Positions 13,869 through 46,727 of a DNA stretch of 64,000 bases are shown here, piece after piece. The translations under genes and the position numbers were made by a program. The stretch's first letter is position 1, and every line of letters begins with the position of its first letter. This stretch comes from Dacryopinax spathularia (Eukaryota > Basidiomycota > Dacrymycetes > Dacrymycetales > Dacrymycetaceae). The DNA lies in NCBI GenBank assembly GCA_037974965.1, contig JBBPFI010000010.1:1116001-1180000 (forward strand), in the 5' to 3' direction. The notes beneath the pieces are model-generated. The model searched no databases and was not told the origin of the DNA. It worked only from the letters and a program-made list of their open reading frames with translations.

Positions 13869-13889
13869 GCCATCAGTAAATACCTCCGT
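13869..13889 (+). repeat. Left terminal inverted repeat
   Basis: GCCATCAGTAAATACCTCCG; 12 bases match exactly the complement of 46716-46727, and after a two-base mismatch CCTCC matches again. About 18 of 21 positions agree. Confidence 0.6.
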
Positions 13890-14046
13890 GGCTTTATAGC
13901 CCTATGGTGGCTATGTAGAAGCCATAGCATCCATTGCATCGTCCCGCACTGGATAGCTGGACATAGGGACCAGCGGACCTATACACGCGCGCGCTAGGCT
14001 ACATAGACCCCGGTTTTCTATGAGTGCTATGACCCGAAATAGGGCT
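13890..14046. repeat. Left subterminal CTATG/CATAG-rich block
   Basis: About ten copies of CTATG, CATAG or near variants in both orientations within 157 bases (for example CCTATGGTGGCTATGTAG and GGCTACATAG). Such clusters are known as transposase-binding sites in CACTA-type ends; that role here is inference. Confidence 0.5.
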
Positions 14047-14417
14047 TTTCAATTGCAGAGGGCCCGTCCTTATTCTGCACGGTGTGAAAAGACGTCTGCC
14101 CAGGAAGCAGGGCGGCCTGGTCGGACGCCCTGAATGAAGTGGAAGGCTGGTGGGGCAGCGGATTAACTTGGGGGGACTGCCAGTGCGATCATGGAGCCTG
14201 AGGGTACTACTAGTACCAGCGAGAGATCCGTATCTTTCGGTGCGCCCAGCCCTTCAGCCAGATAAGTCAGATTTCCTCACCAAGTACCCTCAAAGACGTC
14301 GTTACACCCTAGGTGATCGAGCTCGTGATGTTCCGCGTACCAGGGAGTATGCGGCATATAATGACCTCGTTCGTAGATACGAAACTCAACATGGACGCCC
14401 TAGACTATATCCATTGA

Positions 14418-16571
14418 TCACACTCGCCGAAGGCTTCCTCCGGCGCGGCGGAGTTCAAGATTGGAGGTGTTACCTGGTCTCTCGCGCAAGGCGTCGTCGA
14501 GAAGATAATCCCCGCGATCGCAAGCACGATTGCGATCGCCCGAGCCGTCGTACCAGGCGTTCAAGACCAGGATTGTTACGAGCTGTGCGCCGCATCTGAG
14601 CAACCATTCTGTGCTGATTGGCGCGGCCAGGGTTCCAGCGTCCATGTTTGAGCACGATACATGGCGGGACTCGAGTGTCCTGTTCGTGCGGAAGAAACTG
14701 TCGATATGCCTGTCAAGAAGAGGTGGACGTTTCAGAGGCTGATAGAGCCGTTGAGGGAGATGCAGGCTACGCGTCCTTTCCCTCCTTGAACTACGTGCTT
14801 CGCTGATATGCGTGAGAGACAAGTGAACCAGCCGAGCTGTCGATCGAAGGCAGTAACCCGTACCTCCAGGCTCAGCCACACAGCTCGGAAAGTTCGGCCA
14901 AATCTCGAAAAGACGCTGAGTGAGCTGGTAAAAGGACAACGAGGCGCGCTTACATGCAGTAGGTAATAGAGGGTTGCGAGACGTTTGTATGAATAGATCA
15001 ATGATACCAGTTGTACATCCTGAAAACGGTATCATGCTAAGTGAATAGGCACCTATGGATGTGGGGAAATGGTGTCCACAAGGAAAGAGCAACTGTGTAC
15101 GGTCGAAGTGATTGGCGGCAAAGCGTATTCAAGAAAAATCAGACATGCCCGCGTTCGGCGCACATGACTCAGAGCGGCTATTTCGATATACGTACCCAAT
15201 AAAGAACACGACCGTCGTCGCCATCGTGTGACGTTTCCATAGTACAAGCGCAGGCGGTGTCAGCTTTTCGGTAGAACGAGTGCAAAGACTCACATCGGCG
15301 TTCCCTTGCCCGCCCCCTCAAACGACTCCCCGGCACACCCTCACGATCTCCTCGAGCCATATCCTGCCCATTATGGAACAGACACGAGGGATTATGGGTA
15401 TGTCTTCCTTCTGCTTGCCAGGGCGACGACGTTTCCTCCCATCTGTGCTGCTCTGGCGCGGGCTTCTCGTTGGGCACGGGGTGGGCCTGATCGAGAGAGG
15501 TGCGTAGCCCGAGTACCTTCATGCAATGAGAGCCGGATACTGCTAGGAAATATTGTCCACCAACAGCCTGAGATGTTTCCTCAGGCACTGGAGTGGGAAC
15601 TTGGGCGCAATAAAGAAGAGACGGAGGTTGGCGTGCAGAGGTGCTTGCCCGTTGATGAGGTCTTCTATGGTGGGGTTTGGGGCGTTCAGGTCGTAGGCAG
15701 CAATCGAGACTGCGACGCCGAATTAGGACACATAAACAAATTCTAGATTGAACATGGTCTGTTGAACCTCCAGCGACTGGTTAACATATCCGTTGGCGTT
15801 AGCGGCACAAGCCGCTCCGACAGCCCAGTATTTAGGACAGATCAGCCCAACCTGCCTTCAGCTGGTCCATCCTGTGTGCCCCACGCCTCGTAGTTGTCGT
15901 TCAGCCTCTTCGCGAGCTGGGCCGACGACGGCGAAGGTCGGAGAACATGCTGTCGGAGGAGCTTGGGAAGAAACGCTTGTCCTTTTCTGGGATTGAGGTT
16001 GCACGTAGCACGCGGGCTGTTGTGGCTGGGACAGGGAAGAGAAAGGGGACGCGTCAACTTCTACGTATGCTAGAGGCCTAGTCAGCGACGGACAAAGGTG
16101 GTGGAGCGAATATGGAACTCACAAGCCCGTATTCCGATTAACTCAATGATCAGCCCCTTGTACGGTCAATTCCGAATGAAGCAGGGTAATCGCATGTCTT
16201 CCTATCCACAATAACGAGCGAATACAGTACTGTCTCAGTAGCAAAAGGGGGAGAGATATCGGTCAGCCCAGCTTGTCCCACCCGAGGGAGTAGATCGCTC
16301 AGACGCTTGGAGGATTTGCCTTCCCTATGATCCGGGGAGACAGCCGGGACGCTTATTGGACTGTCCCGAGCGCTTGCGCAGAGTACATAGATCGAGTATG
16401 GTCTTCATGTTCTCTCACGTAAGATCTTTTGACACGCGGCTTAGAGGAGGGAAGGCAGGACGTACTAGGAAAGCCTCGATTGCATGTATTCCCCATCTCC
16501 AGGCGAAGGACTCCTTCCTCGAGCGGTTGGAACTCGCGTTCTAGCTGGCTAATAGTGAGATCGTTACGCAT
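14418..16571 (-). pseudogene. Decayed or unresolved minus-strand gene
   Basis: Several minus-strand frames look like protein but do not join cleanly. Reading from 16571: a piece starting MRNDLTISQLEREFQPLEEG; then a piece around 16000-15850 with KLLRQHVLRPSPSSAQLAKR followed by LNDNYEAWGTQDGPAEG; then about 15740-15560 with VAAYDLNAPNPTIEDLINGQ and APLHANLRLFFIAPKFPLQC; then 15250-15060 with LYYGNVTRWRRRSCSLLGTY. Stops and frame changes between them are more than I can explain with introns. The order and style suggest one helical basidiomycete protein of about 600 residues. I do not recognise the family. The bounds are approximate and the 14.4-15.0 kb part is weakest. Confidence 0.3.
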
Positions 16572-16910
16572 CCCTCACTCCTCCAGCGTCCATTGACAAA
16601 GGATGACCCGGCGCAATAAGGTATACGAATGTATGTCACTGCATGAAGAACGTCGCTTGATCTGGGCTGTCCCGACGGGAGGACGTTTGAAGTCAGGAGG
16701 ACAGGTTGGGGGACCTACCGGCGAGGGATCTCTATCCTCTGGATTGGAGACGACAGAGGTATACGATGATATGCGTTTGCGAGGATAATGAACGTTGAGA
16801 CTCAGAAGGGCAGCGGACCCTGAATGCGGTGATCCCGGATGCAAGTCAGTATTGGCGATGATAAGTATCATGTTGATCATGATCGTCCTCCTGCGAGGAG
16901 CCTCTCTGCC

Positions 16911-19900
16911 ATGCCCACCTGCGTTGGCTGCGATCGCGCGTTCTCGAGCTGGGCTTCTTTGATGCAGCATGCAACCCAACGGAGATCTACACCTTGTTTC
17001 GTGCGATACCGGGAAACTCTATGCTCAGACGACCTCACCGTGATTGCGGACACGAATATTTTTGCTGCAGGAGGCCAGAACGCAGTTGAGGATACAATCT
17101 TGGTTGACGGATCAAGCGTCTTGAACATCATGGACGCCTACCGTCACTCCCCAGTACCTGTCGACTCTGTCGACGATTCGGATACACCAACTTTCCGAGA
17201 ACACAATTCTCCCCCCCAACACCGATATCCCAGCGGATACCTGCAGGAAGTGTATGGCAAGCTCCATCACATTCGGCAGTACGCCATACCGGCTGGAGTA
17301 CCGCTCGCTCGAGACCGCCAGTCGGATCCAAGGGGTCAGGCCCGCGCAGTCCCCAATGGTAACATCTGGCATCCATTCGAGTCCTCGGTCGACTTCCATG
17401 TGGCTCAATGGCTGAAGGCTGAGTCCATCAGTAAGGCTGCTGCAGACCGATTTCTTACCTCTGATGTGAGTCATGAGCATGCTGCTGAGTTATCAAATCG
17501 CTCAAGGCGCGCAGGTGGTTGACATGCTGGGACTCTCGTTCAGAACTATGGATCAGCTGAATCAGAAAATTGACAACGAGCTTCCAGTCCCCCGCTTGTA
17601 TTGGCACCAAGCTGAGATCCCGCTGCAAAATACGCACCACGTCTCAATCTTCTGGTACAGGAGCATTATGGACGCCATACGTATGCTCTGGGGTGACCCT
17701 CGGTTTGCCAATCAACTGCACTTCGTTCCCGAGATGCATTTCGCCGACGCCGACGAAAACGTAAGGCTCTACTCGGAGCTTTGGACGGGAAACTGGTGGC
17801 ACCGGGTACAGGTTGGTCTCGAGAGGTCTGTGAGGCAAAACTACATACTGATCATGATCGGCCTGACAGGGTCAGCTTCCTGCCGGTGCAACGCTCGTAC
17901 CTTATATTCTGGCAACGGACAAGACCCAACTTACGCAATTTTCCGGAAATCGGCAAGGTTATCCGGTTTATATGACGATCGGGAACCTTCCGATAGCAAT
18001 TCGTAAGACCATTTCGATGGGGGCAACCGTTGTTGTAGGGTATTTGCCCACCGACACCTTCGATAACTTGGGTCTCAGCGAGGAAGGCGCTAAAGTGGCA
18101 CGGCAACGCCTCTTCCATTTCTGTATGGGAAGACTGCTGGAGGGTACGAAGCTTGCAGGCTCCGAAGGGATCGACCTGGTATCCGGAGACGGTCTAACGA
18201 GGCGCTGTTATCCCGTTTTGGCCGGCTTCTCAGGCGATTATCCGGAACAATGCCTAGTTACATGCACTCGACATCGCCGCTGTCCCATCGGAGATATTGC
18301 TTGGAAGGAAATGGGTATGGAGCTCACGGGCAAAGAAGATGTCTACGTCAATCGCTGCACCGTTGACTGCAAGCCCCGGAAGCAGCAAGTTACTGTCGAC
18401 ATCTTGAGAGGGCACGTGGTGACCGCGTCAAACGATGACATCGTCGATACTACTCTGGTCGCCGAACCATCGTTGCAGAATGACTCGGTCCTCCTGCCTA
18501 CAAATGGTCATCCTGAACGTCCTCCTGTACAACTCGTCGCAAATCCAGCCACACACACCCTCACTGGGGCGCTGCGTTCGTATAACGCCGTCACCCGAGC
18601 TCTCTCTCTTGCTGCCGTCCCTGAGCCTCTGTTTGCAGACCTTCCGCATGCCGAAATCCATTCTTCCATATGGCCTGATCCTCTGCATCAACTGCTAGAG
18701 GGGGTTGTCAAGCACCTCATGTCATGGGTGAAGACGGTAATAGGAAAGAGGGACATCGATCGTTGTTTCAGGGCCGTCCCGCCTACACATGGTGCACAAA
18801 CGTACAGTGGAGGCTTCCCTGACTACCCTCGCCTCACTGGGGGTGAGGTTAAAAACCTCATCCGTGTCCTCCCAGGTGCCGTATGCGGATCTGTCACGTT
18901 ACGGAACAAGGGCGACGACGGGGCGCACGTAATGAAGGTTGTCTGCGCCCTTGTGGACTTCTATTACGCTGCATGTCTGCCTGTACACTCAGACCGCACA
19001 CTTCCTTTACTGCGGAAGGCGCTGCTGGCTTTCCACAAAAACAAGCATGGACTCACGAACTTGGGAATTCGAAGCGACAAAGGCCTGTCGGAGGATGGTA
19101 ATCGTGAGTCGTACACAAAACTCGCCAATGGTCACTATAACTCTCCGCAGAGAATCCGTTCTGTATACCGAAGTTACATTCGCTGGTCCATTATGTCTGG
19201 CACATTGTGGAGGGTGGATCACTAGATGGGCGAACTACCGAGCTCAGCGAACGTCTCCACATCGATCTTACCAAGCGTCCTTTTCGGAGCAGCAGTCGAC
19301 GGAAAGATACGGCAACCCAGGAAATGGCATTGTGGGTGTGCCGACACGAGACCCTGCAAGGATTCCGAGCGCTGGTCCATTGGCGAAGAGGCGGTGAGCG
19401 GAAGAAACCTCTTCTCCTTCAACGGGAATACTAAATTCCCCTTAGAACCGCCTCAGTCAACCACCGGGCAGAACACACAGCAGGATTATGTTACGCCAAT
19501 GACCAGTTATCGTCTAGCTAAAAATCCCACTTATCAGCGAGTATCCCTGGAGAACATCGTGGACCCACAGGGCTGGGCATGCCTGGACTTCTTTTCTGCT
19601 TTGAGACAGTATGCTCTCAGACGTGCTAGAGATCGCGGACACTCTCCTCCTGCCACAGCCGCAAACATCGCCCCTCACTTGATAGGACCCATATCGGTGT
19701 GGGCTCAGGCAACGGTCGAGACAGTGACGGGGGCTCGAAAGCATGCCTCCACCGTTCACGCATCGGTTTCTCGCAGTAAAGCGGAATCGCGCTTAGTCAA
19801 GGATCACGCGGCTCGCTTCGATACGGTGCTTACTGACGGACAGTCTGGATCGTTAAGTGAGTGCCATGAGTGATCCTGCATTTTCACCCTTGACGACGTC

Positions 19901-20263
19901 ATAGGTGTTGACGACTTCGGTGTGGCGCGAGTGCGGCTAATCTTCAAACTCACCACCCCACTGGGTTGCTCCGCCCTGTACCAAGGCTGGGAAGAACCAC
20001 TCGTATATGTTGAATGGTACGGCGTAGATGCTACTGTCTCTCACCCCTCTGGCTTTCCGCTCTATTGCCGACAACTCACGGGACGCGGTGGTTGCCTGGC
20101 AAGTATACTACCCCTCAGCGCCATCCGCCGCACTTGCATGTTACAAGCGGCCGAAATTGACAGTGTAGACTTGGCAGGAGAGGAAATATTGGATGAATGC
20201 CGGTACTTCTTCTTAAACAAGTACCTGGATCTTGACATGTTCTTGTTTTCTACCAAAGTATAA
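16911..20263 (+). CDS. Plavaka-type (CACTA-like) DNA transposase
   Basis: Six exons (16911-17465, 17515-17811, 17870-19103, 19151-19393, 19446-19856, 19905-20263) join in phase to 1032 residues without an internal stop. The N-terminus is a C2H2-like finger (MPTCVGCDRAFSSWASLMQH). Plavaka landmarks follow in order: LPAGATLVPYILATDKTQL (first Asp), GYPVYMTIGNLPIAIRK, SSIWPDPLHQLLEGVVKHLM (second Asp region), the DIDRCFRAVPPTHG block, ACLPVHSDRTLPLLRKALLA-FHKNK and, after an intron, FCIPKLHSLVHYVW with SERLHIDLTK (likely acidic Glu). It would cut and paste DNA in the nucleus. The third acceptor choice (17870) is the least certain join. The frame seems whole, so the gene may be active or only recently inserted. 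Confidence 0.85.
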
Positions 20264-20605: not shown

Positions 20606-20726
20606 CACCCTGATGTCCTTGGCACTGAGTTTGCAGATGGCCTCAATGGCCGGTGTACACGGCTGCACCATCCTTCTTCCTACCCCGAAGCCCACAACCT
20701 ACAATGGTTGGGATAAAAGGTGCGTG

Positions 20727-20957: not shown

Positions 20958-21070
20958 AACGCTCCTTGGCTTAATCAATGGGCTGAAACTGCTCCATAAT
21001 GCACGTTCTTGTGAATGCCTTCCTCGTCGGCTCACCACCTCTGTATATGTCCCATGAAGACCTCCAGAGC

Positions 21071-21760
21071 GACGAAAAAGCGGGAGGGAGAGGAGAGCGG
21101 GAGGGAGAGAAAGCGGGGGGGGGGGAGAAAGCGGGAGGGGAGAAAGCGGGAGGGAGAGGAAAGCGGGAGGGAGAAGAAAGTGGGAGGGAGAAGAAAGCGG
21201 GAGGGAGAGGAAAGCGGGAGGGAGAAGAAAGCGGGAGGGAGAGGAAAGCGGGAGGGAGAGAAAGGGGGAGGGAGAGGAAAGCGGGAGGGAGAGAAAGGGG
21301 GAGGGAGAGGAAAGCGGGAGGGAGAGAAAGTGGGAGGGAGAGGAAAGCGGGAGGGAGAAGAAAGCGGGAGGGAGAGGAGAGCGGGAGGGAGAGAAAGCGG
21401 GAGGGAGAGAAAGTGGGAGGGAGAGAAAGCGGGGGGGGGGGAGAAAGCGGGAGGGGAGAAAGCGGGAGGGAGAAGAAAGCGGGAGGGAGAGGAAAGCGGG
21501 AGGGAGAAGAAAGGGGGAGGGAGAGGAAAGCGGGAGGGAGAGAAAGGGGGAGGGAGAGGAAAGCGGGAGGGAGAGAAAGTGGGAGGGAGAGAAAGTGGGA
21601 GGGAGAGACAGCGGGAGGGAGAGAAAGTGGGAGGGAGAGACAGCGGGAGGGAGAGAAAGTGGGAGGGAGAGACAGCGGGAGGGAGAGGAAAGCGGGAGGG
21701 AGAGGAGAGGGGGGGGAAGAGGAAAGCGGCGGAGAGGAAAGCGGAGGAGAGAATGTCCGG
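21071..21760 (+). repeat. Purine minisatellite, long allele (left arm)
   Basis: About forty tandem 16-17 nt units of the type GGGAGGGAGAGAAAGC, GGGAGGGAGAGGAAAGC and GGGAGGGAGAAGAAAGC. Open frames of up to 270 codons run through it only because purine codons contain few stops; they are not genes. The tract is about 148 bp longer than its partner in the right arm, the one clear difference between the arms. Confidence 0.9.
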
Positions 21761-22346
21761 ACTACAGTGCTAGGTTCATATCGCAGCGTAATGCTTGCTC
21801 CCTATAGTTGAATAATCCTGCTTGTTCTGTCAACAATGACGACGCATCCTTCATCCGCGAGAGCGAGCTTGCAAGGAGCACGAAGCAGAGCATAGTGATA
21901 CGAAAAAAGCATAGCAGTTCGGTGAGGTGCAGCGGTCATGTCTAACAATGTCACATTTTATGTTCAGGGTACGTATCCCCCAATCTGCTAGACTACTGTA
22001 CAACAGCGTACGATGCGATGAGGATCGGAAAGCGTATCGTGATCTTAGCGTCCTGCGGCGTTTTGTAACAGCGTGTCTACTTTACTGCGACGGTGGTGGA
22101 TGAGAAGAGAAACGGAAATTGTTATCGTAATCGTGGCGGTCGTGGGCGATCTAATGATTTGAATCATAGCGGTCGTAATTGTGGTTGTAGAGCGGGAGAA
22201 TCTTGCGAGTCGTACTGCCAGGTGCAGCATAAGAGTGTAGTGTCCATAATATACAGGTCAGGTAGTAGCGATAGAGCAGAACTTGCTGGACGTCCGGCTG
22301 TGTGGGGTTTGCATGCGTCCCATCACAGGATAGGCTCTTGTTTGTC

Positions 22347-24358
22347 TTAGAGAGAGTCGAAGAGAGAACGGAACTACAGGTCGTCGTCAGGTCAGCCGAA
22401 ACCAGAGTAGAGACCGACTCACGACATTGGGTCCTTGGTGCTGAGTAGGCCCGTACTCCTCAGACTCGTCAGCATCCACGTTGTTATTGTTGGCGGCATC
22501 ACCGGTCGAATGATAGGAACCACTAAGGTATACGGGGTTGATAGTCTGCCACCACTTAGCTAGGAGTCCTCAGATCTAATAGGTCCTGCTCACCGGCTCC
22601 TGGTATGTGCCAACTGCACGGGTTGGAATGGGCGTGATATCCGCGTCAGCCTCGTCCTTCATCGCTCCAGAGGCATTGTACGGCGTAAACATCAGGAAGG
22701 GGCTAAGAGAGATACGGTCGTCCACACTGCCGCGATGATCATCAGCTTCTCCAGAAGTATGGTACGTGGGCGCCGTGGATGAGGAAGGTCCGGGTGGCGC
22801 GGCATCGTCCAAATCGATGTCTGACTCGGCAAGGATCGCAGCCGTGTCGAGGCGGCTCATGATGTCTGCCGCTTCCCCCTCGTTCACCTCACCCCCGTAA
22901 ACGCGCAGAGAGCTGCGCTCTTCTCGAGCCTGAAGAGCCTTGATCCGGTGTGCTGCGGCCGGGGAGGGACTGTGCGGACGGTTCTCTTTATCTTCGATAC
23001 GGCGCCTTTTATGCGAAGTTGGCGTCGTAGGCGTTGTCGGCGTCCTGTTGCGGCGCAGAGACCCGTGGGTGGGAGAAGCGATAGCATTTAGTTGCTCCTG
23101 CACCGTAGCCATGGCCGCAGCGGTCGCCGCAGCCGTAGCATGCGGTCCCCAAGGCAACCCGTCGCTGGTCGCCAAGAAGTACTCGACATACCAGTCTTGA
23201 ACCGCGTCCTTGGGGGGAAACGAATCAGATATCGTCATCACCAGCGGACTCGGCGCGGATGTGTATGTCCATCTGATGTTCCTATCCATTTTGGCAACGA
23301 GCGCGAGAGCAGCCTTGAATGACATGAGCCAGAGGATCATTTCGTTAAGCCTGAATCGCTTACGGCGAAGTACCTGTTGTTGACGTTGAAGGAGAAGGGT
23401 TCCGGGGTGGGACTAGACTCGATCAGGTCCGCTTTAAAGAAGCTCAGCTCCGTGTAAAGCTTTCCGCGCCCTGTGATGTGTATGTCAGCAATGGTTCCAG
23501 ACCTAGGAGTGGGGACCAACCAGCAACGGCTTCTACTTTAACGAGGTCTTCCTCGAAGGTTATAATCACAAAGCCATCCGCCTTCGATGTGAAAGCATGC
23601 AGCACCTTGTTGATGGACTTGCACGCCATAGGGCTGAGAACGAGGTGAGGAAGCAGCCCGAAATCTTCATCCATCCTGGGTTGATTAGGCGCGTCCGGCA
23701 CGTCGATGAGTTCAAAGCGGTACGTGTACGAAACACCTAGCAGAACATAGCATATATGCGTCAGTTGACACGATGCGGCTCGAAGTAAAGCTCAGGCTCA
23801 CCGTGAGGCAGGGAGAACCTGACGAAAAATGCACTCTCCACACCATGCTCGTGTTCCATCCAGTCGGGATACTCGTCCTCGTCTTCTTCCATATCTTCGG
23901 ATGGTTTATAGATGAGAATGGTGGCAGAGATTAGGCCAGCCGCTTTGAAGGGGAGCGCCTTGAAGCGCGTTTCGAGCAGCTTGATGTACAGGAACGATGA
24001 ATCCTGGTCCCCTTCGGCCAGAGATACAGGGGAGGGCTGGTAGAGAATATTCGGCGAGAGACCAGGCGTATGATACTTCATAAAGAATGACCGATGAAGG
24101 ACAGCTTTTGCATGAGCAGAACGGGCCATACACCATGTCCGAAGGTGTAGCTATATGCACATCAGAAACTGTAAACGTGAACGGCCTTGCAGGCAGCGCA
24201 CCTCGTCAGGCATAGTGATAATCTCCATCTCATCGCCGTACTTGCTCAAGCTCCGCAGGATCTCATACAGGTCTAATACTCAGCTGCAGATCCCGACCCC
24301 AGAAAGGAGACTAACCTCTAGCAGCGCTGGGGCTTACGGTAGCATTCAGTACGATCAT
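22347..24358 (-). CDS. RAD9-like checkpoint clamp subunit, left-arm copy
   Basis: Mirror image of the right-arm gene at 36584-38595 (each base x maps to 60942 minus x), with the same eight exons and, by eye, the same 551-residue product. See the right-arm entry for domains. Rad9 is one subunit of the ring-shaped 9-1-1 clamp (Rad9-Rad1-Hus1) loaded at damaged DNA. Both copies look complete, so either could be expressed. Upstream of this copy lies the truncated PIF1 with the same 151-bp divergent promoter. Confidence 0.7.
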
Positions 24359-24509
24359 GGCAGCTGATAAGCGGTGATTAAAGTAGAGGCGATGGCTGAA
24401 AGTGTGTTGTTGTCAGAGGAGAGAATGGGTATGTTTGGAAGTACAGTGAGGAGAATAATACAGAGCGGATAAGTGGTCGTACAGGCGGAAGTTCTAGCAG
24501 GGCGAGAAT

Positions 24510-25310
24510 GTGTCCCGCACGCCCAGGTTGAACGCCCTGACGTCGACTCTGCTGATCCCTACTGCATGTCTCCTGCTGTCTGCAACGTTCACCTCGACGC
24601 ACCACCTTGCTATGAACTACTACGGAATACCGCTGCAAAAGCGCGAGAAGCATCTCAAAACTCAGGCGGACTGCCGGGTGGAATTCATGAGACGCATGAT
24701 GTCTCGTGTGGCACGTCATTCGTACGCACCTCTCAACCCGACCCCAGCAGTAACCTGGACGCCTGGATCTGCCCTGGACGAGGCTCCTCCTAGGGGGGAA
24801 TCGGATACCCCGCTCTTGCAGGTTGACTTCCATTCGCCAGACCAGACGATAAACGATGAAAGCATCTGTCTGGGGTATGAGCAGAAATACTTAGTCGGCC
24901 GCGCAAGGGAGGGGCGCAGTTTCTTCTTCAGTGGAGCAGCAGGTGTGCCGCCTACTATTCGAAGGGATACTGGGTTATTGATTACTCTTGCAGGCACCGG
25001 AAAGACAGTTGCGCTACTTGCCATCATCAAAGCGCTAGAAGAGATCCACCCTCGCAGCGCAATCGGAGTCTGCGCAACGACCGGACTTGCTGCTTCTCAC
25101 ATTGGGGGTACTACTCTCCACTCGTGGGCCGGTATCGGGCTAGGAGAGGGATCAGCGGCGGATATGGCGGCGGCTATTCGTAGCTCTCCGAAGGCACTGG
25201 AGCGCTGCTTGATCGCCAGTATAGTACTGACTGGACGGCGTACCGCTACCTTGCGGAGCCAGTCCCAAAATCCTTTAACAAGAGCTACGTTGTATAGATC
25301 CGGTCTTTAA
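24510..25310 (+). pseudogene. Truncated PIF1 helicase copy (left arm)
   Basis: Exon 1 (24510-24942) and the first 219 bases of exon 2 (24994-25212) match the right-arm PIF1 exactly as far as I can see. They include the Walker A motif (GTGKT) and the CATTGLAASHIGG motif Ia region. The homology stops at 25212, just before the Walker B aspartate block, and the frame runs on through unrelated sequence to a stop at 25310. The product would be about 250 residues and cannot be an active helicase. It marks the inner edge of the duplication. Confidence 0.85.
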
Positions 25311-25537
25311 ATGTTGACAATGATCGTCACGGTTTTAGTGCGTCGCATCAGGCTACAGGGTAGCCGCCGCGGCCTGTGTCCTCGTGCCTCTGGACAATCC
25401 ATAGTTCCAGGACCGTTCCCCTGGGTTGTCGCTATGGGCAGAAAGCGGATTCGAATCCTTATCGTCCTATCTGCGGATACACAACTCGCACACTATGGCA
25501 ACGACCCGCTACTGAGAAGGGCACTAGACGGGGAAGC
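25213..25537. other. Start of the unique spacer between the arms
   Basis: No gene supported. Open frames are short and shadow the 3' end of the minus-strand gene that follows. Confidence 0.35.
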
Positions 25538-28500
25538 TCACTTCTCTGTCCTCTTTTGCCGCTTCTTCTTCTTCCTTTTCTCCGCTTTTTCCTGCTTGGT
25601 TTCGGGAGGGCGTCCGCGTAAGCGGAATATACGACCTTGCTGCGTCCACAAGAAAGGTTTACTTGGCGTACTCCGTTTAGCGATTCCGACGGCAAACTCT
25701 GGCCAAGTCGCCTGCTCTTGCTCGTCGAGTTCCGCTGCCAGCTCGCTGAAATCCGTCTCGCATTCGTAACAATCGTGAGGTACTGCAGCCAGATTAGTAG
25801 CTCGGACCATCAGCCGCTCGCCATGCTTACTGTCCACCATCTTGTCGGTGCGGAACATGCAGGGTACTTGTTTTCCGCTACAATGCGTGCATTTCTCACC
25901 TAGTACACGCCAGCAGGTCTCCGTCCATTTGCTTTGGCTTTTCTTCGTCTTGCTTTGCGACCAGCAACGCTGGCATGTCTGGCACCTGTAGAAACCATGC
26001 GCGATCTTGAGATGATATAAGGATCGCCTCGAGAAAGAGCAGAGTAGATACTCACGATTACGAAGCGCTCCCTAGGGCGGAAGCGGGTTATGACGACGCC
26101 CGCACGGCGAATGCGGGCCCGGTTAAGTTTCCACCAGGGATAATACTTAGGCATAATCTTCGAACCAACCACGTTTTTTTCATATTTTTGAAGGGCGCGC
26201 TCCGTTTGGGCAAACCATACGCGGGGTACGAAGTCGGTCGCTTCCGTGCCCTTGTAGTAAGGATTATCCGCTCTGCGACAATCTTCGTGAATGCTGATCC
26301 AGCCCTTCTGAGCGATAGCGGCGTTGCGCAGGGACACCTGCGAATGCTCTCCATTGGGAGACCAATCGCTGAGCTCGTCGACCGGAAGATTTAGAGTTTC
26401 GTCATCCGTCATCTCAGTTTCATCGTAGATCCATGTTTTGTCGGTCGTCGCCTGATCGGAGGGTACTTCGGCCGGCCTTTCCATGCCCGTGAGGGGTGGG
26501 CCGCCGATATCAGGGACGGGGGGAAGTGAGCTGTTGGACGGATTTGGCGAGAGGTCCCCAACGTTTGGAGTAGCAAGAGGCGACAGCGGACGTTGAACTT
26601 GATCAGACGATCTGACCGGGTGTCGTGATGCATCTGGTTGTCCACCTCCAACGTCTTCTGACCTTTGCAAAGCTTCTCCTTCGTTTCGCTCGTCCTCTTC
26701 GCTCGTCCCATCTGAATCCAGTCTTGAATCGTCCGTATCCTCTTGCTGCGTGCGACGCCGTTTGGTTTGTGATGCTAATAAAGGTACAGTCGGATCTGGG
26801 TCCTGAGGCATGTCTTCCTCTGTTGACTCGGGGAGCACCGGCTTCGCATCTCCCTGCCTCAAGCTAGTCTCGCTCACAGCAGCGTTAGGAAGGAGCATCT
26901 GTGGTTCCTCTCCAGAATCCACTAAAAGATCAGCTCCTGGTGGCTCGAAAGCGCCGTTGCCACTACCTCTGGGAGGATCAGAATGGTCAGACGACCAAGC
27001 GTTCAGCAGGTCGATCGATGGAGGGAGCTGAGCGCGACATGCGACTGCTACGCTGTCCACGCCCTCCCGGGCAGGGTTGCCAGCTGATATGGAGCGAAGA
27101 GGATCCAATATTGAGGCAGCCTTAGCGAGATAACTCTCCGTCTTCCGTCTCAGTTGAGTATCTGCTATGCCCATGGCAGTCTTATGCTGCTGACGATGAC
27201 ACCAGGGCACGCACGTCGGATTCGGGAGGTGTTCTCGTATTCGCACGTCGCCTCGCTTTGCCAGAGCATGGGCTTCATGCAGGAGCTTAAGCACGTCGGC
27301 ATGAAAAGCCCCGGGAATCATATCAAATACTTGCGATTCGAAGCACGCATAGAACAGGCCCTGTATCACTTAAGAAAGGGACTATCCAAGACGAGCCAGG
27401 CACTTACGAGCAACCGGCACGCCATTACTACACGGTCTCTGCGCTCTGTTGCCGTCTCTCGTCTCGGAGGTGTGAGCATCGGTGACAATCGGTCTTGCCA
27501 ATGCTTGAATTTCATGAACTGAACGCCGCGCGGTCGAAGAGTTTCGGCCGGATCACAACGTAAAACAAGGGCGAGAGGCAAGCGTTGTAAAGGAAGAATT
27601 GCACCGGGTATAGCAAGTGACAGTAGTTCGTCGGAGCCCACGAGATCGTTCAATTGCTTTAGAAGAGTGATCAGGTTCTCGACCATCGTCGTACTGATTT
27701 CAGAATAGGCAACATAATGCTCAAGAAGGAACTGTATCTGTCGCGGCGTGAAAACCCGTCGGCGACCATTAGCACGACAAAGGTGATAATCACTCACCCA
27801 GGCGTCTGTGGTATAAAGGATATAGAAACCGACGCTTTCTCTACTGGCGTCCTGCGACCACTTGGCGTCCGGGATTATGGACCGCACAAGCTGATTGCCG
27901 TACTCCACACTCAAATGCATCTGGACGAAGCTCTGTCGAGGTATGCCAGTATTTTGCCACCAATCTTGGTCCCTGCCTTTCTTCCTTGCATCGGTCGGAG
28001 CGTTGATCCAAATCCAAGCTTCGCGCCCCAGAGCGTAATTACGAAAGCTGTCTGGTGCGCAGGAAGCATGCAAGGCGGTCACCTCGGGCTTGAAACCGCA
28101 GGCGAAGATAGTATCTCTCGCGTACAGCATGTCACTGAGCAACCGCGTCCGCAAAATTCCCGGAAGAGGTCGGATTCTCAGAGCCATCGCAGCGTTCCAA
28201 ATAATATCCTAGAGGACTCGTTGGAAGGACCTGGTCAAAAGGACAGAAAGAGGAGCTGGGACGCGTACCCATAATTCTCGCACGACGGCGACATGTGCCT
28301 TCGCTCTGTTGCCGGAACCATCAGCTCGAAGGTCTGGACCATGGCCGAGGAGATCTATGAGAGATTTGGTTGCATGTGCGAATGCGTAACGCAACCGTTC
28401 GTCCCAGTTCAACGCGATTTGGACGGGTTTCTCTTTCGAGGTGGCTTTCAAATTCAAAAAACCGTCCGATGTGATGATTCCATTCGGACGAGGGGACCCG

Positions 28501-31447: not shown

Positions 31448-31734
31448 GGAGGGTTATGCTTGTCTTCAGTGCGCGATTCTTTCCAACAACGAGAGCAACC
31501 TAGACATGTCTTGACGACGGTCTTATGCTTAGCCGTAGATTTGCTCTAAGCTCTAGGCTTCTGTACATAGCGACACCTTAACTCATTGTGCGAATCACAT
31601 ACGTTCACCCTCTCGCGAATGCGCGCGCTATGACGAGCTTGAAAATCGGCTTTCATCACCACATGCCATCACATTGTGCGAGCATAGAAACAGGGGTACT
31701 TCAGCAACATGGCAGCTACCTACGCTTGCTACGG
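31448..31734. other. Convergent intergenic stretch
   Basis: Separates two converging 3' ends; no feature seen. Confidence 0.35.
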
Positions 31735-34313: not shown

Positions 34314-36432
34314 CTATGCTGAATGCTCAGCAGGAATGCTGCGCACCGTCTTGTAGTACCGCTTGACGGTAGAAGACGCTTTAATCTCAGATTCGTGGTC
34401 AGAGCACGGCAGCTGGTGAGGTGCCTGAATACTCACTTTGCCTGGATCGAAATTAAGCAGCTGCAGACCCCGTCTCGTTCGCACGCGCGCAGAGCCAGAG
34501 TAAGCGTGACCTATCAACGGTTACCGTAGGAGCCTCGGCTCTTAAAGAATCTCATTACCCAGGCCCCAGACGCGCCTTAGATCCACTTTGGCCGCGTCCG
34601 CGGTCGTCCCCTGAGCTTTATGAATGGACATTGCGTAGCCCAGAGCGCACGGAAGCTGCGCAGAAGCTTATGAGCCAGGGTAGGAATTCCTTTGGCGAGC
34701 GAACTTGCCTGCGTACGACTTGCAATGACATCACCGTTGGCCTTAAGGTCAATCCTTTGCGGCACCAGCAGCATCTGATATGCGTCTCGAGTAGAGGTTT
34801 TAGGGAATTCCACAACCGGAAAGAGCCTTTCAGTACGGGTGTGCAGCGCCGACGCGCTTGTGCAGTTTGCAAAGTTTTGACCGGCTCTGATCCATGCTAT
34901 CCTGGATGCGAAACCGAGAACACGACCAGCACTTCCATTCGCAAGAAAGGGATCGCCTTGTTGGTTCCGAAGTAGCATGATCTGCGCGCCCACCCGCAAT
35001 CTGAGGTCGCCAGGCACTGTGAGATCCGCAAGCGCTGCGGCTGCTTCAATCAGACAGGTGGGTGAGGGGTGGTCGACTGCCTTGTAGACGAATTCGGGAC
35101 CGTCGAGAAGCTCCAGATGAGCCATATTCGCTACATAAGCCTCTGCGCGTGTTGCAAATCTGTCCGACCACGTAAATGAGAAGCCAGACTGGTTTTGATT
35201 GCGACCCACAATTCTGTTGGTTCTACTCCAGCGGGGCACTGGATCGGCTCTGCTAGCTCCTGAAATCGCCGTATGCTGTGGTCAGATAGCTCAGCTTGCC
35301 GCATCTCCTCCAGCATCTGAATGAACACTGCCCGACGTGAGTCAACTGTCTGCGCTATCCGCATAGATGAACATACCCGGGTCACTTTGGCGGTAGACAG
35401 TCTTCAGACACCAAGCCTCATCCAGGCCAGACCAGCAGGACGCCTCGAAAGCAAATTTCGTTCGGCTGGTGTCAAGGGCGCGGTGAACAGGAGGGAGTTG
35501 GAGGAAGTCACCGCATACGATCAACTACCGGTCGTCAGGCATTGCTTGAACGAGTTCCAGCAACTCACCTGTACGCCACCAAAGGGCCTTTGATTGTCGC
35601 GGACCATGGCGAACGCTTCGAAGAAGGTATCGAGTAGTTCGCCGTGTGCCAAGCCGACTGTTTTCTATGAGGCGATTCAAGAAGCGAAAGCAAGCCGCTT
35701 ACTTTCCTCAATGATCAAGACTTCGTTGGTCAAGCAGCGCTCCAGTGCCTTCGGAGAGCTACGAATAGCCGCCGCCATATCCGCCGCTGATCCCTCTCCT
35801 AGCCCGATACCGGCCCACGAGTGGAGAGTAGTACCCCCAATGTGAGAAGCAGCAAGTCCGGTCGTTGCGCAGACTCCGATTGCGCTGCGAGGGTGGATCT
35901 CTTCTAGCGCTTTGATGATGGCAAGTAGCGCAACTGTCTTTCCGGTGCCTGCAAGAGTAATCAATAACCCAGTATCCCTTCGAATAGTAGGCGGCACACC
36001 TGCTGCTCCACTGAAGAAGAAACTGCGCCCCTCCCTTGCGCGGCCGACTAAGTATTTCTGCTCATACCCCAGACAGATGCTTTCATCGTTTATCGTCTGG
36101 TCTGGCGAATGGAAGTCAACCTGCAAGAGCGGGGTATCCGATTCCCCCCTAGGAGGAGCCTCGTCCAGGGCAGATCCAGGCGTCCAGGTTACTGCTGGGG
36201 TCGGGTTGAGAGGTGCGTACGAATGACGTGCCACACGAGACATCATGCGTCTCATGAATTCCACCCGGCAGTCCGCCTGAGTTTTGAGATGCTTCTCGCG
36301 CTTTTGCAGCGGTATTCCGTAGTAGTTCATAGCAAGGTGGTGCGTCGAGGTGAACGTTGCAGACAGCAGGAGACATGCAGTAGGGATCAGCAGAGTCGAC
36401 GTCAGGGCGTTCAACCTGGGCGTGCGGGACAC
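34314..36432 (-). CDS. PIF1-family DNA helicase
   Basis: Eight exons, read from 36432: 36432-36000, 35948-35703, 35657-35569, 35524-35377, 35327-35210, 35159-34709, 34655-34559, 34510-34314; they join in phase to 592 residues. Motifs in order: SGAAGTGKT (Walker A), CATTGLAASHIGGTTLHSWAG (Ia), LIIEEIGLAHGELLD (Walker B, with EE where DE is usual), QLIVCGDFLQLPPV (III), LKTVYRQSDPVFIQMLEEM (IV), LRLRVGAQIMLLRN, SIHKAQGTTADAAKVDL (V) and RTRRGLQLLNFDP (VI). Family members are 5'-3' superfamily 1 helicases that unwind G-quadruplexes and forked DNA. The sixth intron uses GC-AG borders (GCAAGT donor). Motif VI reads YSGSARVRTR where YVALSRVRTR is usual, a possible activity-lowering change. It has no Helitron Rep or HUH part. 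Confidence 0.88.
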
Positions 36433-36583
36433 ATTCTCGCCCTGCTAGAACTTCCGCCTGTACGACCACTTATCCGCTCTGTATTATTCTCCTCACTGTA
36501 CTTCCAAACATACCCATTCTCTCCTCTGACAACAACACACTTTCAGCCATCGCCTCTACTTTAATCACCGCTTATCAGCTGCC
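36433..36583. promoter_or_regulatory. Divergent promoter between PIF1 and RAD9
   Basis: 151 bp separate the two start codons. C/T-rich leader sequence precedes RAD9. The identical stretch is present between the left-arm copies (24359-24509), so both copies of RAD9 keep their own promoter. Confidence 0.6.
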
Positions 36584-38595
36584 ATGATCGTACTGAATGC
36601 TACCGTAAGCCCCAGCGCTGCTAGAGGTTAGTCTCCTTTCTGGGGTCGGGATCTGCAGCTGAGTATTAGACCTGTATGAGATCCTGCGGAGCTTGAGCAA
36701 GTACGGCGATGAGATGGAGATTATCACTATGCCTGACGAGGTGCGCTGCCTGCAAGGCCGTTCACGTTTACAGTTTCTGATGTGCATATAGCTACACCTT
36801 CGGACATGGTGTATGGCCCGTTCTGCTCATGCAAAAGCTGTCCTTCATCGGTCATTCTTTATGAAGTATCATACGCCTGGTCTCTCGCCGAATATTCTCT
36901 ACCAGCCCTCCCCTGTATCTCTGGCCGAAGGGGACCAGGATTCATCGTTCCTGTACATCAAGCTGCTCGAAACGCGCTTCAAGGCGCTCCCCTTCAAAGC
37001 GGCTGGCCTAATCTCTGCCACCATTCTCATCTATAAACCATCCGAAGATATGGAAGAAGACGAGGACGAGTATCCCGACTGGATGGAACACGAGCATGGT
37101 GTGGAGAGTGCATTTTTCGTCAGGTTCTCCCTGCCTCACGGTGAGCCTGAGCTTTACTTCGAGCCGCATCGTGTCAACTGACGCATATATGCTATGTTCT
37201 GCTAGGTGTTTCGTACACGTACCGCTTTGAACTCATCGACGTGCCGGACGCGCCTAATCAACCCAGGATGGATGAAGATTTCGGGCTGCTTCCTCACCTC
37301 GTTCTCAGCCCTATGGCGTGCAAGTCCATCAACAAGGTGCTGCATGCTTTCACATCGAAGGCGGATGGCTTTGTGATTATAACCTTCGAGGAAGACCTCG
37401 TTAAAGTAGAAGCCGTTGCTGGTTGGTCCCCACTCCTAGGTCTGGAACCATTGCTGACATACACATCACAGGGCGCGGAAAGCTTTACACGGAGCTGAGC
37501 TTCTTTAAAGCGGACCTGATCGAGTCTAGTCCCACCCCGGAACCCTTCTCCTTCAACGTCAACAACAGGTACTTCGCCGTAAGCGATTCAGGCTTAACGA
37601 AATGATCCTCTGGCTCATGTCATTCAAGGCTGCTCTCGCGCTCGTTGCCAAAATGGATAGGAACATCAGATGGACATACACATCCGCGCCGAGTCCGCTG
37701 GTGATGACGATATCTGATTCGTTTCCCCCCAAGGACGCGGTTCAAGACTGGTATGTCGAGTACTTCTTGGCGACCAGCGACGGGTTGCCTTGGGGACCGC
37801 ATGCTACGGCTGCGGCGACCGCTGCGGCCATGGCTACGGTGCAGGAGCAACTAAATGCTATCGCTTCTCCCACCCACGGGTCTCTGCGCCGCAACAGGAC
37901 GCCGACAACGCCTACGACGCCAACTTCGCATAAAAGGCGCCGTATCGAAGATAAAGAGAACCGTCCGCACAGTCCCTCCCCGGCCGCAGCACACCGGATC
38001 AAGGCTCTTCAGGCTCGAGAAGAGCGCAGCTCTCTGCGCGTTTACGGGGGTGAGGTGAACGAGGGGGAAGCGGCAGACATCATGAGCCGCCTCGACACGG
38101 CTGCGATCCTTGCCGAGTCAGACATCGATTTGGACGATGCCGCGCCACCCGGACCTTCCTCATCCACGGCGCCCACGTACCATACTTCTGGAGAAGCTGA
38201 TGATCATCGCGGCAGTGTGGACGACCGTATCTCTCTTAGCCCCTTCCTGATGTTTACGCCGTACAATGCCTCTGGAGCGATGAAGGACGAGGCTGACGCG
38301 GATATCACGCCCATTCCAACCCGTGCAGTTGGCACATACCAGGAGCCGGTGAGCAGGACCTATTAGATCTGAGGACTCCTAGCTAAGTGGTGGCAGACTA
38401 TCAACCCCGTATACCTTAGTGGTTCCTATCATTCGACCGGTGATGCCGCCAACAATAACAACGTGGATGCTGACGAGTCTGAGGAGTACGGGCCTACTCA
38501 GCACCAAGGACCCAATGTCGTGAGTCGGTCTCTACTCTGGTTTCGGCTGACCTGACGACGACCTGTAGTTCCGTTCTCTCTTCGACTCTCTCTAA
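36584..38595 (+). CDS. RAD9-like checkpoint clamp subunit, right-arm copy
   Basis: Eight exons (36584-36626, 36670-36740, 36792-37140, 37206-37421, 37472-37578, 37629-38348, 38397-38519, 38569-38595) join in phase to 551 residues. The N-terminal clamp half shows the Rad9 pattern LRSLSKYGDEMEIITMPDEL, then LRTWCMARSAHAKAVLHRSF-FMKY. Later come the HGVSYTYRFELID strand, PFSFNVNNRYF and an AALALVAKM helix. The tail is long and disordered with a KRRR signal and ends EEYGPTQ...FRSLFDSL, the hallmark GPTQ/FRSLF end of fungal Rad9. Known role: forming the 9-1-1 DNA damage clamp. It is divergent from core Rad9 proteins, so it may be a specialised paralogue. The fifth intron (GTAAGC, CTTAAC branch, AAG acceptor) is the least certain. 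Confidence 0.78.
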
Positions 38596-39171
38596 GACAA
38601 ACAAGAGCCTATCCTGTGATGGGACGCATGCAAACCCCACACAGCCGGACGTCCAGCAAGTTCTGCTCTATCGCTACTACCTGACCTGTATATTATGGAC
38701 ACTACACTCTTATGCTGCACCTGGCAGTACGACTCGCAAGATTCTCCCGCTCTACAACCACAATTACGACCGCTATGATTCAAATCATTAGATCGCCCAC
38801 GACCGCCACGATTACGATAACAATTTCCGTTTCTCTTCTCATCCACCACCGTCGCAGTAAAGTAGACACGCTGTTACAAAACGCCGCAGGACGCTAAGAT
38901 CACGATACGCTTTCCGATCCTCATCGCATCGTACGCTGTTGTACAGTAGTCTAGCAGATTGGGGGATACGTACCCTGAACATAAAATGTGACATTGTTAG
39001 ACATGACCGCTGCACCTCACCGAACTGCTATGCTTTTTTCGTATCACTATGCTCTGCTTCGTGCTCCTTGCAAGCTCGCTCTCGCGGATGAAGGATGCGT
39101 CGTCATTGTTGACAGAACAAGCAGGATTATTCAACTATAGGGAGCAAGCATTACGCTGCGATATGAACCTA

Positions 39172-39726
39172 GCACTGTAGTCCGGACATTCTCTCCTCCG
39201 CTTTCCTCTCCGCCGCTTTCCTCTTCCCCCCCCTCTCCTCTCCCTCCCGCTTTCCTCTCCCTCCCGCTGTCTCTCCCTCCCACTTTCTCTCCCTCCCGCT
39301 GTCTCTCCCTCCCACTTTCTCTCCCTCCCGCTGTCTCTCCCTCCCACTTTCTCTCCCTCCCGCTTTCCTCTCCCTCCCCCTTTCTCTCCCTCCCGCTTTC
39401 CTCTCCCTCCCGCTTTCTTCTCCCTCCCGCTTTCCTCTCCCTCCCGCTTTCTTCTCCCTCCCCCTTTCTCTCCCTCCCGCTTTCCTCTCCCTCCCACTTT
39501 CTCTCCCTCCCGCTTTCCTCTCCCTCCCCCTTTCTCTCCCTCCCGCTTTCCTCTCCCTCCCGCTTTCTTCTCCCTCCCGCTTTCCTCTCCCTCCCGCTTT
39601 CTTCTCCCTCCCACTTTCTTCTCCCTCCCGCTTTCCTCTCCCTCCCGCTTTCTCCCCTCCCGCTTTCTCCCCCCCCCCCGCTTTCTCTCCCTCCCGCTCT
39701 CCTCTCCCTCCCGCTTTTTCGTCGCT
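39172..39726 (-). repeat. Purine minisatellite, short allele (right arm)
   Basis: The same 16-17 nt units as in the left arm, seen here as pyrimidines on the plus strand (CCCTCCCGCTTTCTCT type). About 148 bp, or nine units, shorter than the left tract. Confidence 0.9.
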
Positions 39727-39865
39727 CTGGAGGTCTTCATGGGACATATACAGAGGTGGTGAGCCGACGAGGAAGGCATTCACAAGAACGTGCATTATGG
39801 AGCAGTTTCAGCCCATTGATTAAGCCAAGGAACGTCGATTGATTTGAAGGGAACAGAAACAAGCA

Positions 39866-44528: not shown

Positions 44529-45962
44529 TCAAAGCCAGACGCATGAAGGGGATGTCAAAGGTGCATACAGGTATTCGTTGGTCACGAACGTCCTCATCTG
44601 AGCGTAATTTATCGGCGCTGACGCCTCATAATGCTCGAGCCAGCCACAAATGTCCCGATAAGTCTCTGTATTCTCCGGGTCGTCCTCTTTGAAATGCAGA
44701 TTGACAAGTGTACCAGATTCATAGCACGAGAAGCCATGATAGAGCTGCATACGTGTTAACTCAAAGCGTTTCAGGAGAGATGCGTGCGTACCCCAGTCAC
44801 TGCGGCAGCGATTAGTCGCGGGGGTATGGACAGAAATATTTCCGGAATTGGCTCAGCGTTGGTCGAGCTTTCCGCCAGCGTATAAGCCACCAATCTTGCG
44901 CAGAGTTCAATGACGCCAGAATGACAAAAAGCATCCTCGGCAGAGAGGGGCGGGCTGGGCTGCAGGATCATTGTAAGTGCCCGCACGAGAAGCTCCTGTC
45001 AGACACGGACCTGGCGGCAATCGAAACCACGATATATGAAATGAACGTTTTCGCGTAGGTTGGAGAAAGCTGCCTTCGAGGACTCGGTGGAAAAGCGGAG
45101 CTGCTCCCCCAGTTCTTCCTTGCGCTTTTTCCTCTTCTCTTCTGAGTAGGCCGATGCCAATCTGGAAGTCTCGTCCGCGAGTTTCACCGCATCTTGATAT
45201 TCAGACAGTATGACGTGTTGAGCCTTCGTCTTGAGGATTCCGCGAGCTGAGGGGCGGACTCGCTCGAGCTATGCCTGTCAGTCCTGCACACATGGCAACT
45301 CACTACAGCAGCTTACGAGTGCCTTTTGCCCTGGGTATATGTGGAAATCTATCTGGGGTGCTTCCGGGTCTTTCTGACGAGCTTCTTCGTTGGCGGTAAT
45401 CCTGACTCGCTCCATAATCTCGTCCATCTCTAGAGGAGAAGGGAAAAGGTTTTCCGTGAAGAAATAGGTCCGCATCAGTCGTTTGGCGATCTGCAACACA
45501 CGGCGCATCGGGGGTTGATAGCTTGCAAGGTTCCTACCCTTGAAGTCTCTGGAAGGAGGAGGCCAGATCATCCAGGGGCCGTGTTTTTCTTCGTGTACGG
45601 GAAGTGTCCCAACGCCCAGGGATCGCTCAGTGACTGCGTCTGCCAGGATAGGCGTGACTGTAACCATCTCATCGTGGGCGCTGCGCTCAGGCAGCTCAAT
45701 GGCACTGATTGCAACACGCCGGCGCTTGGTTTGCTCGACCGGATAGTTGGACGTTGGCGCAACATTTCGTTTTCGGGGCTGGGCTGATGTCAGGCGCGAG
45801 GAACATCGACGTAGGCTGTTTACGCACACGACTTCGGCTTACACGACCGGGCTCAATTCCGATCTCTTCCCGACTCCCGCGCCTCACAGATATTTGACCA
45901 GAACCATTGTTCGATGCACCTTGAGCGGTCGCCGTGGTTACTCCAACTGGGACGAGGTACAA
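44529..45962 (-). CDS. DUF6532-domain protein B
   Basis: Read from about 45962 (MYLVPVGVTTATAQGASNNG): an intron with GTGCGT donor and CCCAG acceptor near 45780 leads to a basic linker, then LQIAKRLMRTYFFTENLFPS with LEMDEIMERVRITANEE, a later RGILKTKAQHVILSEYQDAV block, ENVHFIYRGFDC, IPPRLIAAAVTG and an end in FVTNEYLYAPLTSP. These match the segment order of DUF6532. The exon joins between 45300 and 44750 were not fixed base by base. The product is about 400-430 residues, without the long tail of protein A. Confidence 0.6.
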
Positions 45963-46593
45963 TACGTTGACAGACTCATCGGCTAGCTCCTTCGTGGGCT
46001 CCTGACCGCTCTGCTTCTAGGACCCGAAGCGCACCATCAGGATGATGAATAGTACGTTCTATGGTGCATTGACCTACCGCACGTCGTCGCACACGTGAGC
46101 CGCCTGTCAAGATGTTAGTAGCCTATTTCTGGGCATATCAACGCGTTCCTTACTGGCAAACTCATATCGTCGGCCGTGACTAACGTCGGAATCTGCAGCA
46201 AGTTTCGGCAGACGAGCAAGATGTCGGCCATTCCACATAGGTAGCGAGGTTGGGATCTGTAGAGCCATAGGTGTACACTCGCGTTGAGTTGAATCAAAGG
46301 CCAGGCCTAGGTGTCATAACTGACCAACCGCATCTCCTGAGAAACGAAACTTCTCAGACACGCAACAAACGGTCTTAGGTGGACGCGCTGACCCAATTTG
46401 CCTCCGAGCATCATGACTTTCGGATTACTGCAGTCCGGTCGAACCGGCCATTGGGCTAACGACAGTACGGGGAAGCCACATTCCTAGCAAATTTGGCTCG
46501 AATCCACCTGCGAGAGGAGATACGCTGTCAGCGCACTATTCAAGTTAGGTTTAGAGCCTCGTCTGCGCTTTCAGGACGTCAAATGGGGCGCTC
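45963..46593. other. Right interior of the element
   Basis: No supported gene. Short minus-strand frames exist but show no family resemblance. Confidence 0.35.
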
Positions 46594-46706
46594 ATAGTGG
46601 AACCATAGCGGCGGTACCCACTACATAGAAAGCAGGTGGACCCTATAAGTGAACAGCCACTATGGACACCGGATAGCGCGTTTTCGGGGTACCCACTATG
46701 CGTAGC
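46594..46706. repeat. Right subterminal CTATG/CATAG-rich block
   Basis: At least seven CTATG/CATAG-type words in about 110 bases, including GGTACCCACTACATAG and GGTACCCACTATG as two related copies that each contain CACTA. The mate of the left block at 13890-14046. Confidence 0.5.
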
Positions 46707-46727
46707 AGGGAGGGTTTTACTGATGGC
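46707..46727 (-). repeat. Right terminal inverted repeat
   Basis: Ends TTTACTGATGGC, the exact complement of the left edge for 12 bases. Confidence 0.6.

Follow-up and report, generated by a model that had tools for sequence, protein, structure and literature searches.

A 33-kb element of probable PlavakaB type carries helicase, RAD9-like and DUF6532 genes in Dacryopinax spathularia

Introduction

The PlavakaB transposons of Agaricomycotina have, in the portions of their description cited here, termini CATCA..TGATG, a target duplication of 2 or 3 bp and, in some families, a further gene, TET/JBP (Kojima 2025, PMC12730594). We describe a 32,855-bp element, called W, that resembles them in its Plavaka transposase, its CATCA..TGATG termini and its 2-bp duplication. 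W lies in a stretch of 64,000 nucleotides (the window, C10:1116001-1180000) of the basidiomycete Dacryopinax spathularia, whose 29.2-Mb assembly comprises 24 contigs, and its bounded relatives are named by contig as C2, C11 and C12. These elements are 33–46 kb long, and they differ from PlavakaB, as presented in the same portions of that account, which give no element lengths, in their two DUF6532 genes and in a cluster of clamp-type and helicase genes (PMC12730594). No TET/JBP match was found in the scanned W frames and gene models.

Giant Plavaka repeats of up to 50 kb with other cargo are reported from the protist Amoebidium, where, in the sections of the source used here, they form tandem clusters of intron-poor genes with many tyrosine recombinases (PMC11244446). 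In contrast, W has intron-containing clamp, helicase and DUF6532 models, defined ends and target duplications. A first-pass annotation of the window had remarked that a cargo-carrying Plavaka element this large would be new. This holds for fungi, in that no description of a bounded 33–46 kb fungal Plavaka element with clamp-helicase and DUF6532 cargo was found in the open-licence PubMed Central (PMC) literature, but not more widely, given the Amoebidium repeats.

Starships are, like W, giant, cargo-carrying and fungal, but in the cited parts of the literature they are built around a tyrosine recombinase (PMC12134995, PMC12289983), whereas W has a Plavaka transposase and inverted ends. For Tremella fuciformis, the relevant part of one report gives eight Starship elements from a tyrosine-recombinase pipeline (PMC13066641). 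No Pfam match to a tyrosine-recombinase captain was present in 20 W open frames (E value ≤0.05) or in six of the eight different W gene models.

Helitrons possess a Rep domain together with a helicase and have neither terminal inverted repeats nor a target duplication. W shares with them a PIF1-type helicase but differs in having both terminal inverted repeats and a target duplication, and in that its PIF1 gene is small and intron-containing; no Rep domain was matched in the Pfam scans of W frames and models that were used for the captain. Rep and PIF1 domains also define Helitrons in the cited section of PMC8290104, which records many Plavaka elements in Marasmius oreades.

W is bounded by inverted ends and a target-site duplication

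The first-pass annotation had placed inverted ends at 13869 and 46727, with a dense CTATG/CATAG field behind each and ordinary host genes outside them. The inverted ends were confirmed, but their exact limits were not: the true ends are at 13871 and 46725, and the GC dinucleotides at the outer edges are the two copies of a target-site duplication. The flanking genes, encoding a cyclophilin-type isomerase on the left and PEX13 on the right, are indeed ordinary host genes. The genome search with both ends that had been proposed as a check recovered a near-identical copy, C2:1801548-1834132, which aligns to window positions 13871-46725 as two long segments, one 99.2% and the other 99.6% identical. 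The flanks of W and C2 are unrelated, and the alignment halts exactly at the terminal CATCAG/CTGATG, beyond which C2 has a duplication of its own.

Two more distant elements have homologous ends on both sides, namely C12:987440-1033318 (45,879 bp) and C11:85131-130871 (45,741 bp). These four are the bounded elements among the 22 Plavaka loci in the genome, and each has a 2-bp duplication (GC in W, CA in C2, AT in C12 and AA in C11), whereas four such pairs would agree by chance with a probability of about (1/16)^4. The CATCA..TGATG termini are exact on both sides in W and C2 and on the left side in C12.

The CTATG/CATAG fields described earlier are likewise borne out. These motifs occur 7 and 5 times in the left and right terminal 200 bp of both W and C2, 7 and 6 times in C12 and 4 and 5 times in C11, against an expected 0.32 per 200 bp at the window average, and away from W's ends the maximum is 3 in any of 6271 overlapping 200-bp windows. 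The fields are putative transposase binding sites.

DNA searches of the genome with the W ends, for which the tool scores the best candidates only, gave six places for the left end and three for the right. No short stand-alone element with W-type ends was seen among these matches, two of the six (on C9 and C1) having been read at one end only. These two places hold one end of a related family and are 99.7% alike over 5160 bp. The Plavaka-type ends at C9:1252161 and C1:1548747 both have ACTCAGG(TAA) just beyond the aligned stretch, which suggests either that their terminus differs or that a particular target is preferred.

The bounded elements share a transposase and a gene plan

Nine gene models in W, representing eight different genes, were obtained with our own small gene finder: the transposase, two identical RAD9-like genes in inverted arms, genes A, B and C, a PIF1-like helicase and two DUF6532 genes (Table 1). 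The transposase model is approximate, with at least one misplaced splice site. Among 8000 candidates scored, 582 homologues of this protein were found at E ≤0.001, the best from Calocera viscosa (36 and 40% identity), and the organism-named relatives among the 120 listed of these 582 are all from Basidiomycota, for example Calocera, Trametes and Ganoderma. An alignment of 11 transposase sequences, in which D-D-E, C(2)C and H(3-4)H arrangements were sought, contains 17 invariant D/E/C/H/W positions; by family, the W protein would be a D-D-E nuclease. The C11 and C12 transposases are about 51–52% identical to that of W, and their partial, approximate models give a ratio of nonsynonymous to synonymous substitution (dN/dS) of 0.21.

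All four bounded elements have the Plavaka transposase near the left end and DUF6532 genes near the right end, as well as the same type of end and a 2-bp duplication, which upholds the earlier proposal that ends and transposase are parts of one element. The suggested check for similar cargo in other copies was likewise positive, as each of the eight different W genes has a counterpart in C12 (tblastx). Protein identities between W and C12 (blastp) are 51% for the transposase, 38 and 46% for the DUF6532 proteins, 31% for PIF1, 26–31% for A, 29% for B, 25% for C and 30%, over 105 residues only, for the RAD9-like protein. The first 15 kb and last 0.5 kb of C11 were read; this part contains the transposase, RAD9-like and PIF1 genes, and matches from the whole-genome searches show that A, B and DUF6532 also fall within the element.

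C12 has extra genes for RAD1 (E 2.1e-39), RAD17 (E 9e-19), an M20 peptidase, an AARP2CN protein and an APH-family kinase, and C11 has one for an L7Ae-family ribosomal protein, which lies at C11:93075-94178 and is apparently intact. In bases 28161-37101 of the C12 element, the kinase gene separates or overlaps BMS1-like pieces, and a DUG2-like gene (WD40/M20) is also present. Here Pfam gave AARP2CN, M20 peptidase and L7Ae, which we take to correspond to BMS1, DUG2 and eL8. At the DNA level, C12 and the part of C11 that was read are 90.1% identical across 3517 bp of the transposase region and 79–82% identical at the ends; elsewhere, the 20 longest matches comprise one of 213 bp at 75%, the rest being minisatellite. 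This mosaic likeness hints at an exchange of parts between elements.

The first-pass annotation had also stated that everything unusual in the window falls inside the block. This applies to the Plavaka transposase, the inverted arms, PIF1 and DUF6532, but the resemblance of the arm gene to RAD9 is weak. The arms match over 3671 bp reported at 100%, with minisatellite tips at 98% and less. Outside the minisatellite they are identical within W, with 3 differences within C2 and 8–9 between W and C2, a pattern that may reflect gene conversion or flipping within each copy. Counted from the transposase side, the cluster order is PIF1-B-A in C12 and C11 and the inverted A-B-PIF1 in W and C2, which a single inversion between W's arms would explain. 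A separate 139-bp inverted repeat within W (window 20702-20840 and 33601-33739, 94% complementary) is possibly a small mobile piece.

Genes A, B and C have no Pfam match in scans of W frames and models. For gene A, no solved-structure match was obtained and no protein homologue at E ≤1 with 8000 candidates scored, while the structure search with gene B gave seven weak matches (E 0.12–0.59). A viral origin of A and B was considered and rejected, as none of 29 and 27 IMG/VR pattern matches, respectively, was confirmed as a relative; Pfam scans of W also found no capsid or DNA polymerase gene of the kind carried by a virus or Polinton. Between W and C2 there are 15 synonymous changes in 3543 sites and 20 nonsynonymous changes in 11,289 (Fisher p 0.015), in a count that includes the arm gene twice and omits the transposase because its W and C2 models differ in length. 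Nonsynonymous changes in these genes are thus fewer than neutral.

Table 1 Features of W and its borders in the window
Feature	Position	Strand	Basis
Target-site duplication, left copy (GC, 2 bp)	13869..13870		C2 has CA/CA, C12 AT/AT, C11 AA/AA
Very probable complete giant Plavaka element, 32,855 bp, CATCAGTAAA..TTTTACTGATG	13871..46725	+	C2:1801548-1834132 copy starts and stops at same bases
Left subterminal field, 7 CTATG/CATAG motifs	13871..14070		Motif count
Plavaka transposase gene, ~984 aa (amino acids), ~7 exons, weak N-terminal C2H2 zinc finger	16839..20263	+	PF18759 E 1.7e-62; zf-C2H2 E 0.0092, below cut-off
Inverted arm 1: 17-bp minisatellite tip, RAD9-like gene, PIF1 5′ part	20959..25212	+	
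RAD9-like gene copy 1, 576 aa	22151..24228	-	PF04139 E 4e-4, below cut-off
Open frame, truncated PIF1 5′ part in arm 1	24498..25307	+	PF05970 E 5.8e-8
Gene A, ~1031 aa, no family assigned	25348..28926	-	Gene model; 36 genome loci
Gene B, ~646 aa, no family assigned	29398..31447	+	Gene model; 15 genome loci
Gene C, ~362 aa, no family assigned	31735..33065	-	Gene model; homologue in C12 element
PIF1-like helicase gene, ~489 aa, 3′ end uncertain, 5′ part within arm 2	34555..36330	-	PF05970 E 1.3e-25
Inverted arm 2	35730..39835	-	No difference from arm 1 in 3413 compared bases, minisatellite excluded
RAD9-like gene copy 2	36714..38791	+	Gene model, profile scan
DUF6532 gene 1, ~810 aa	39866..42524	-	PF20149 E 7.5e-22 on one open frame; gene model
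DUF6532 gene 2, ~454 aa	44529..46231	-	PF20149 E 1.5e-14
Right subterminal field, 5 CTATG/CATAG motifs	46526..46725		Motif count
Target-site duplication, right copy (GC, 2 bp)	46726..46727		Comparison with C2 copy

Outside W, the window ends in a long minisatellite array of ~94-bp units (57370-64000) that follows degenerate TTAGGG-like repeats at ~55.2–57.2 kb. The contig ends ~44 kb beyond this array, which may therefore be subtelomeric.

The inner genes recur as a cluster across the genome

Genome-wide matches were merged by hand, with 104 PIF1 matches giving 90 places, 71 A matches 36 loci, 31 B matches 15, 45 Plavaka matches 22, 52 KDZ matches 29 and 57 DUF6532 matches 39 (in the Plavaka linkage count) or 37 (in a later count). 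Expected numbers presume uniform placement. Twenty of the 22 Plavaka transposase loci have DUF6532 within 45 kb, against 1.7 expected. This linkage fits the part of a Ganoderma paper in which Plavaka and DUF6532 are adjacent among the additional domains of two species (PMC8955403).

The inner genes of W are linked to one another in the same way. Gene A lies within 20 kb of a PIF1 place at 34 of its 36 loci when all 90 PIF1 places are used (4.2 expected), and at 27 of 28 when one member of each of eight apparent near-identical pairs is dropped. Small-frame PIF1 places were hand-picked (44 of 90); two of them, C4:512048 and C11:421462, have long frames and were included after gene A had been located. 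Only 5 of the 36 A loci are within 20 kb of a long-frame PIF1 (2.2 expected), and thus the partner of A is mainly the small intron-containing PIF1. A suspected rule that A and its nearest small PIF1 are always on opposite strands was discarded (24 opposite versus 10 same). Gene B is within 5 kb of A at 14 of 15 loci (0.2 expected).

Clamp and loader genes are found in the same company. In a RAD9 search with E values up to 0.1, 15 of 16 matches have a PIF1 place no more than 25 kb away (2.3 expected), or 11 of 12 without the four W and C2 arm matches. Seven of the 16 exceed the Pfam cut-off, and six of these are near small-frame PIF1. Also near PIF1 are 4 of 5 RAD17 matches (0.7 expected) and 4 of 6 RAD1 matches (0.9 expected); some RAD9, RAD17 and RAD1 matches are presumably the host's own genes. 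The order RAD17-A-B-PIF1-RAD1 is found at three loci (C12, C8:730-746 kb and C7:1521-1537 kb), and RAD17-A-B-PIF1 at C10:836-848 kb. These data indicate that the middle block of W is a genome-wide repeated gene cluster rather than random captured DNA. Some RAD9 matches stand 2.5–2.9 kb from a long-frame, Helitron-like PIF1 (C4:1012613/C4:1015122, C17:256624/C17:253821 and C14:949880/C14:946976) and are perhaps a separate capture or insertion.

The W arm gene itself is plausibly a divergent clamp (9-1-1), because above-cut-off RAD9, RAD1 and RAD17 matches sit in sister clusters. No homologue of the RAD9-like protein was found at E ≤0.001 with 8000 candidates scored.

Discussion

We conclude that window positions 13871-46725 are, with high probability, a complete giant PlavakaB-type DNA transposon of the cut-and-paste kind. 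The termini, the 2-bp duplication and the transposase match identify the type, and the four bounded copies show that it carries cargo.

Several observations weigh against this interpretation or parts of it. The right end of C12 and both ends of C11 have CATCG/CGATG, which departs by one base from the terminus published for PlavakaB, and the Plavaka loci on C5 and C14 have no DUF6532 within 45 kb. The arm gene matches RAD9 below the Pfam cut-off (20.4 bits versus 25, E 4e-4), its C11 and C12 counterparts have no Pfam match up to E 0.5, the C12 counterpart matches it over 105 residues only (E 5e-5), and a profile of the three proteins from W, C11 and C12 retrieved no RAD9 structure. The genome's second-best RAD9 match (C3:1068248) has no PIF1 within 25 kb, and uniform placement is a presumption of every expected number above. 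The gene models were predicted from the DNA sequence, so that an intact W transposase frame is likely rather than certain. Finally, a Plavaka transposase is found within 45 kb of gene A at only 8 of its 36 loci, against 2.3 expected, and four of these 8 are W, C2, C11 and C12.

The remaining 28 gene A loci are all more than 45 kb from any Plavaka transposase, so that the cluster is not dependent on Plavaka. The clamp-helicase cluster is itself the repeated unit and is partly carried by Plavaka, such that W's inner genes are not exclusive to W-type transposons. The same count favours a nested arrangement, in which the block at 20959-39835 is an independent mobile element inside an ordinary, smaller Plavaka and accounts for the 33-kb size, and the 4-kb inverted arms do frame this block in W. 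However, the outer arm tips have no target duplication, and for this reason a nested terminal-inverted-repeat transposon between the arms was rejected. C12 lacks long arms, its longest inverted match being 241 bp, and both C11 and C12, whose transposases are ~51–52% identical to that of W, likewise have the cluster positioned between the transposase gene and the DUF6532 genes. Nesting is therefore possible but, in our estimation, rather unlikely. A passive origin, with chance capture of host genes that are now decaying, would suit the apparent host captures in the relatives (BMS1-like and DUG2-like pieces in C12, an eL8-like gene in C11), but appears improbable when the clamp-helicase genes recur jointly at dozens of loci, three of which share the RAD17-A-B-PIF1-RAD1 order, and when the W/C2 differences show the deficit of nonsynonymous changes noted above. 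That only two near-identical copies were found might instead indicate a segmental duplication or assembly artefact. We regard this as highly improbable, given that W and C2 end exactly at CATCAG/CTGATG but differ in their flanks and in their 2-bp duplications, and that two diverged relatives do likewise.

Under the transposon model, the transposase would bind the CATAG-rich subterminal fields, excise the whole block and insert it at a 2-bp target. Excision would leave a donor gap of 33–46 kb, the refilling of which would need long synthesis of the break-induced-replication type. In yeast, break-induced replication depends on PIF1, and the 9-1-1 clamp with RAD17 acts at breaks. If the element itself brought a clamp, loader and helicase, these would favour refilling, so that the element would be kept at the donor site and gain a copy. 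The cargo may aid donor-gap refilling through PIF1-dependent synthesis, a proposal that we advance tentatively and consider less probable than its negation. The inverted arms would let the middle flip, and gene conversion would keep both RAD9-like copies alike.

More speculative still is the idea that PIF1, A, B, the clamp (RAD9/RAD1) and the loader (RAD17) form a mobile, selfish replication-repair cassette in its own right, which would multiply by PIF1- and clamp-driven long DNA synthesis and use Plavaka as one of several vehicles. KDZ transposase was examined as a mover of the stand-alone clusters and rejected, as none of the 36 gene A loci is within 45 kb of the 29 KDZ places (3.2 expected).

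Giant cargo transposons of fungi are known, in the sources cited, mainly as tyrosine-recombinase Starships. Here a cut-and-paste family appears to shift blocks of 33–46 kb in a basidiomycete, and the genes that it repeatedly carries resemble those for checkpoint clamps and PIF1, with which the cell itself carries out repair synthesis. The system opens a direct test of donor-site restoration by a very large cut-and-paste element and ties DUF6532, an unexplained domain, to Plavaka transposons. If the cluster is a mobile unit of its own that uses Plavaka as a vehicle, this would be the more novel case.

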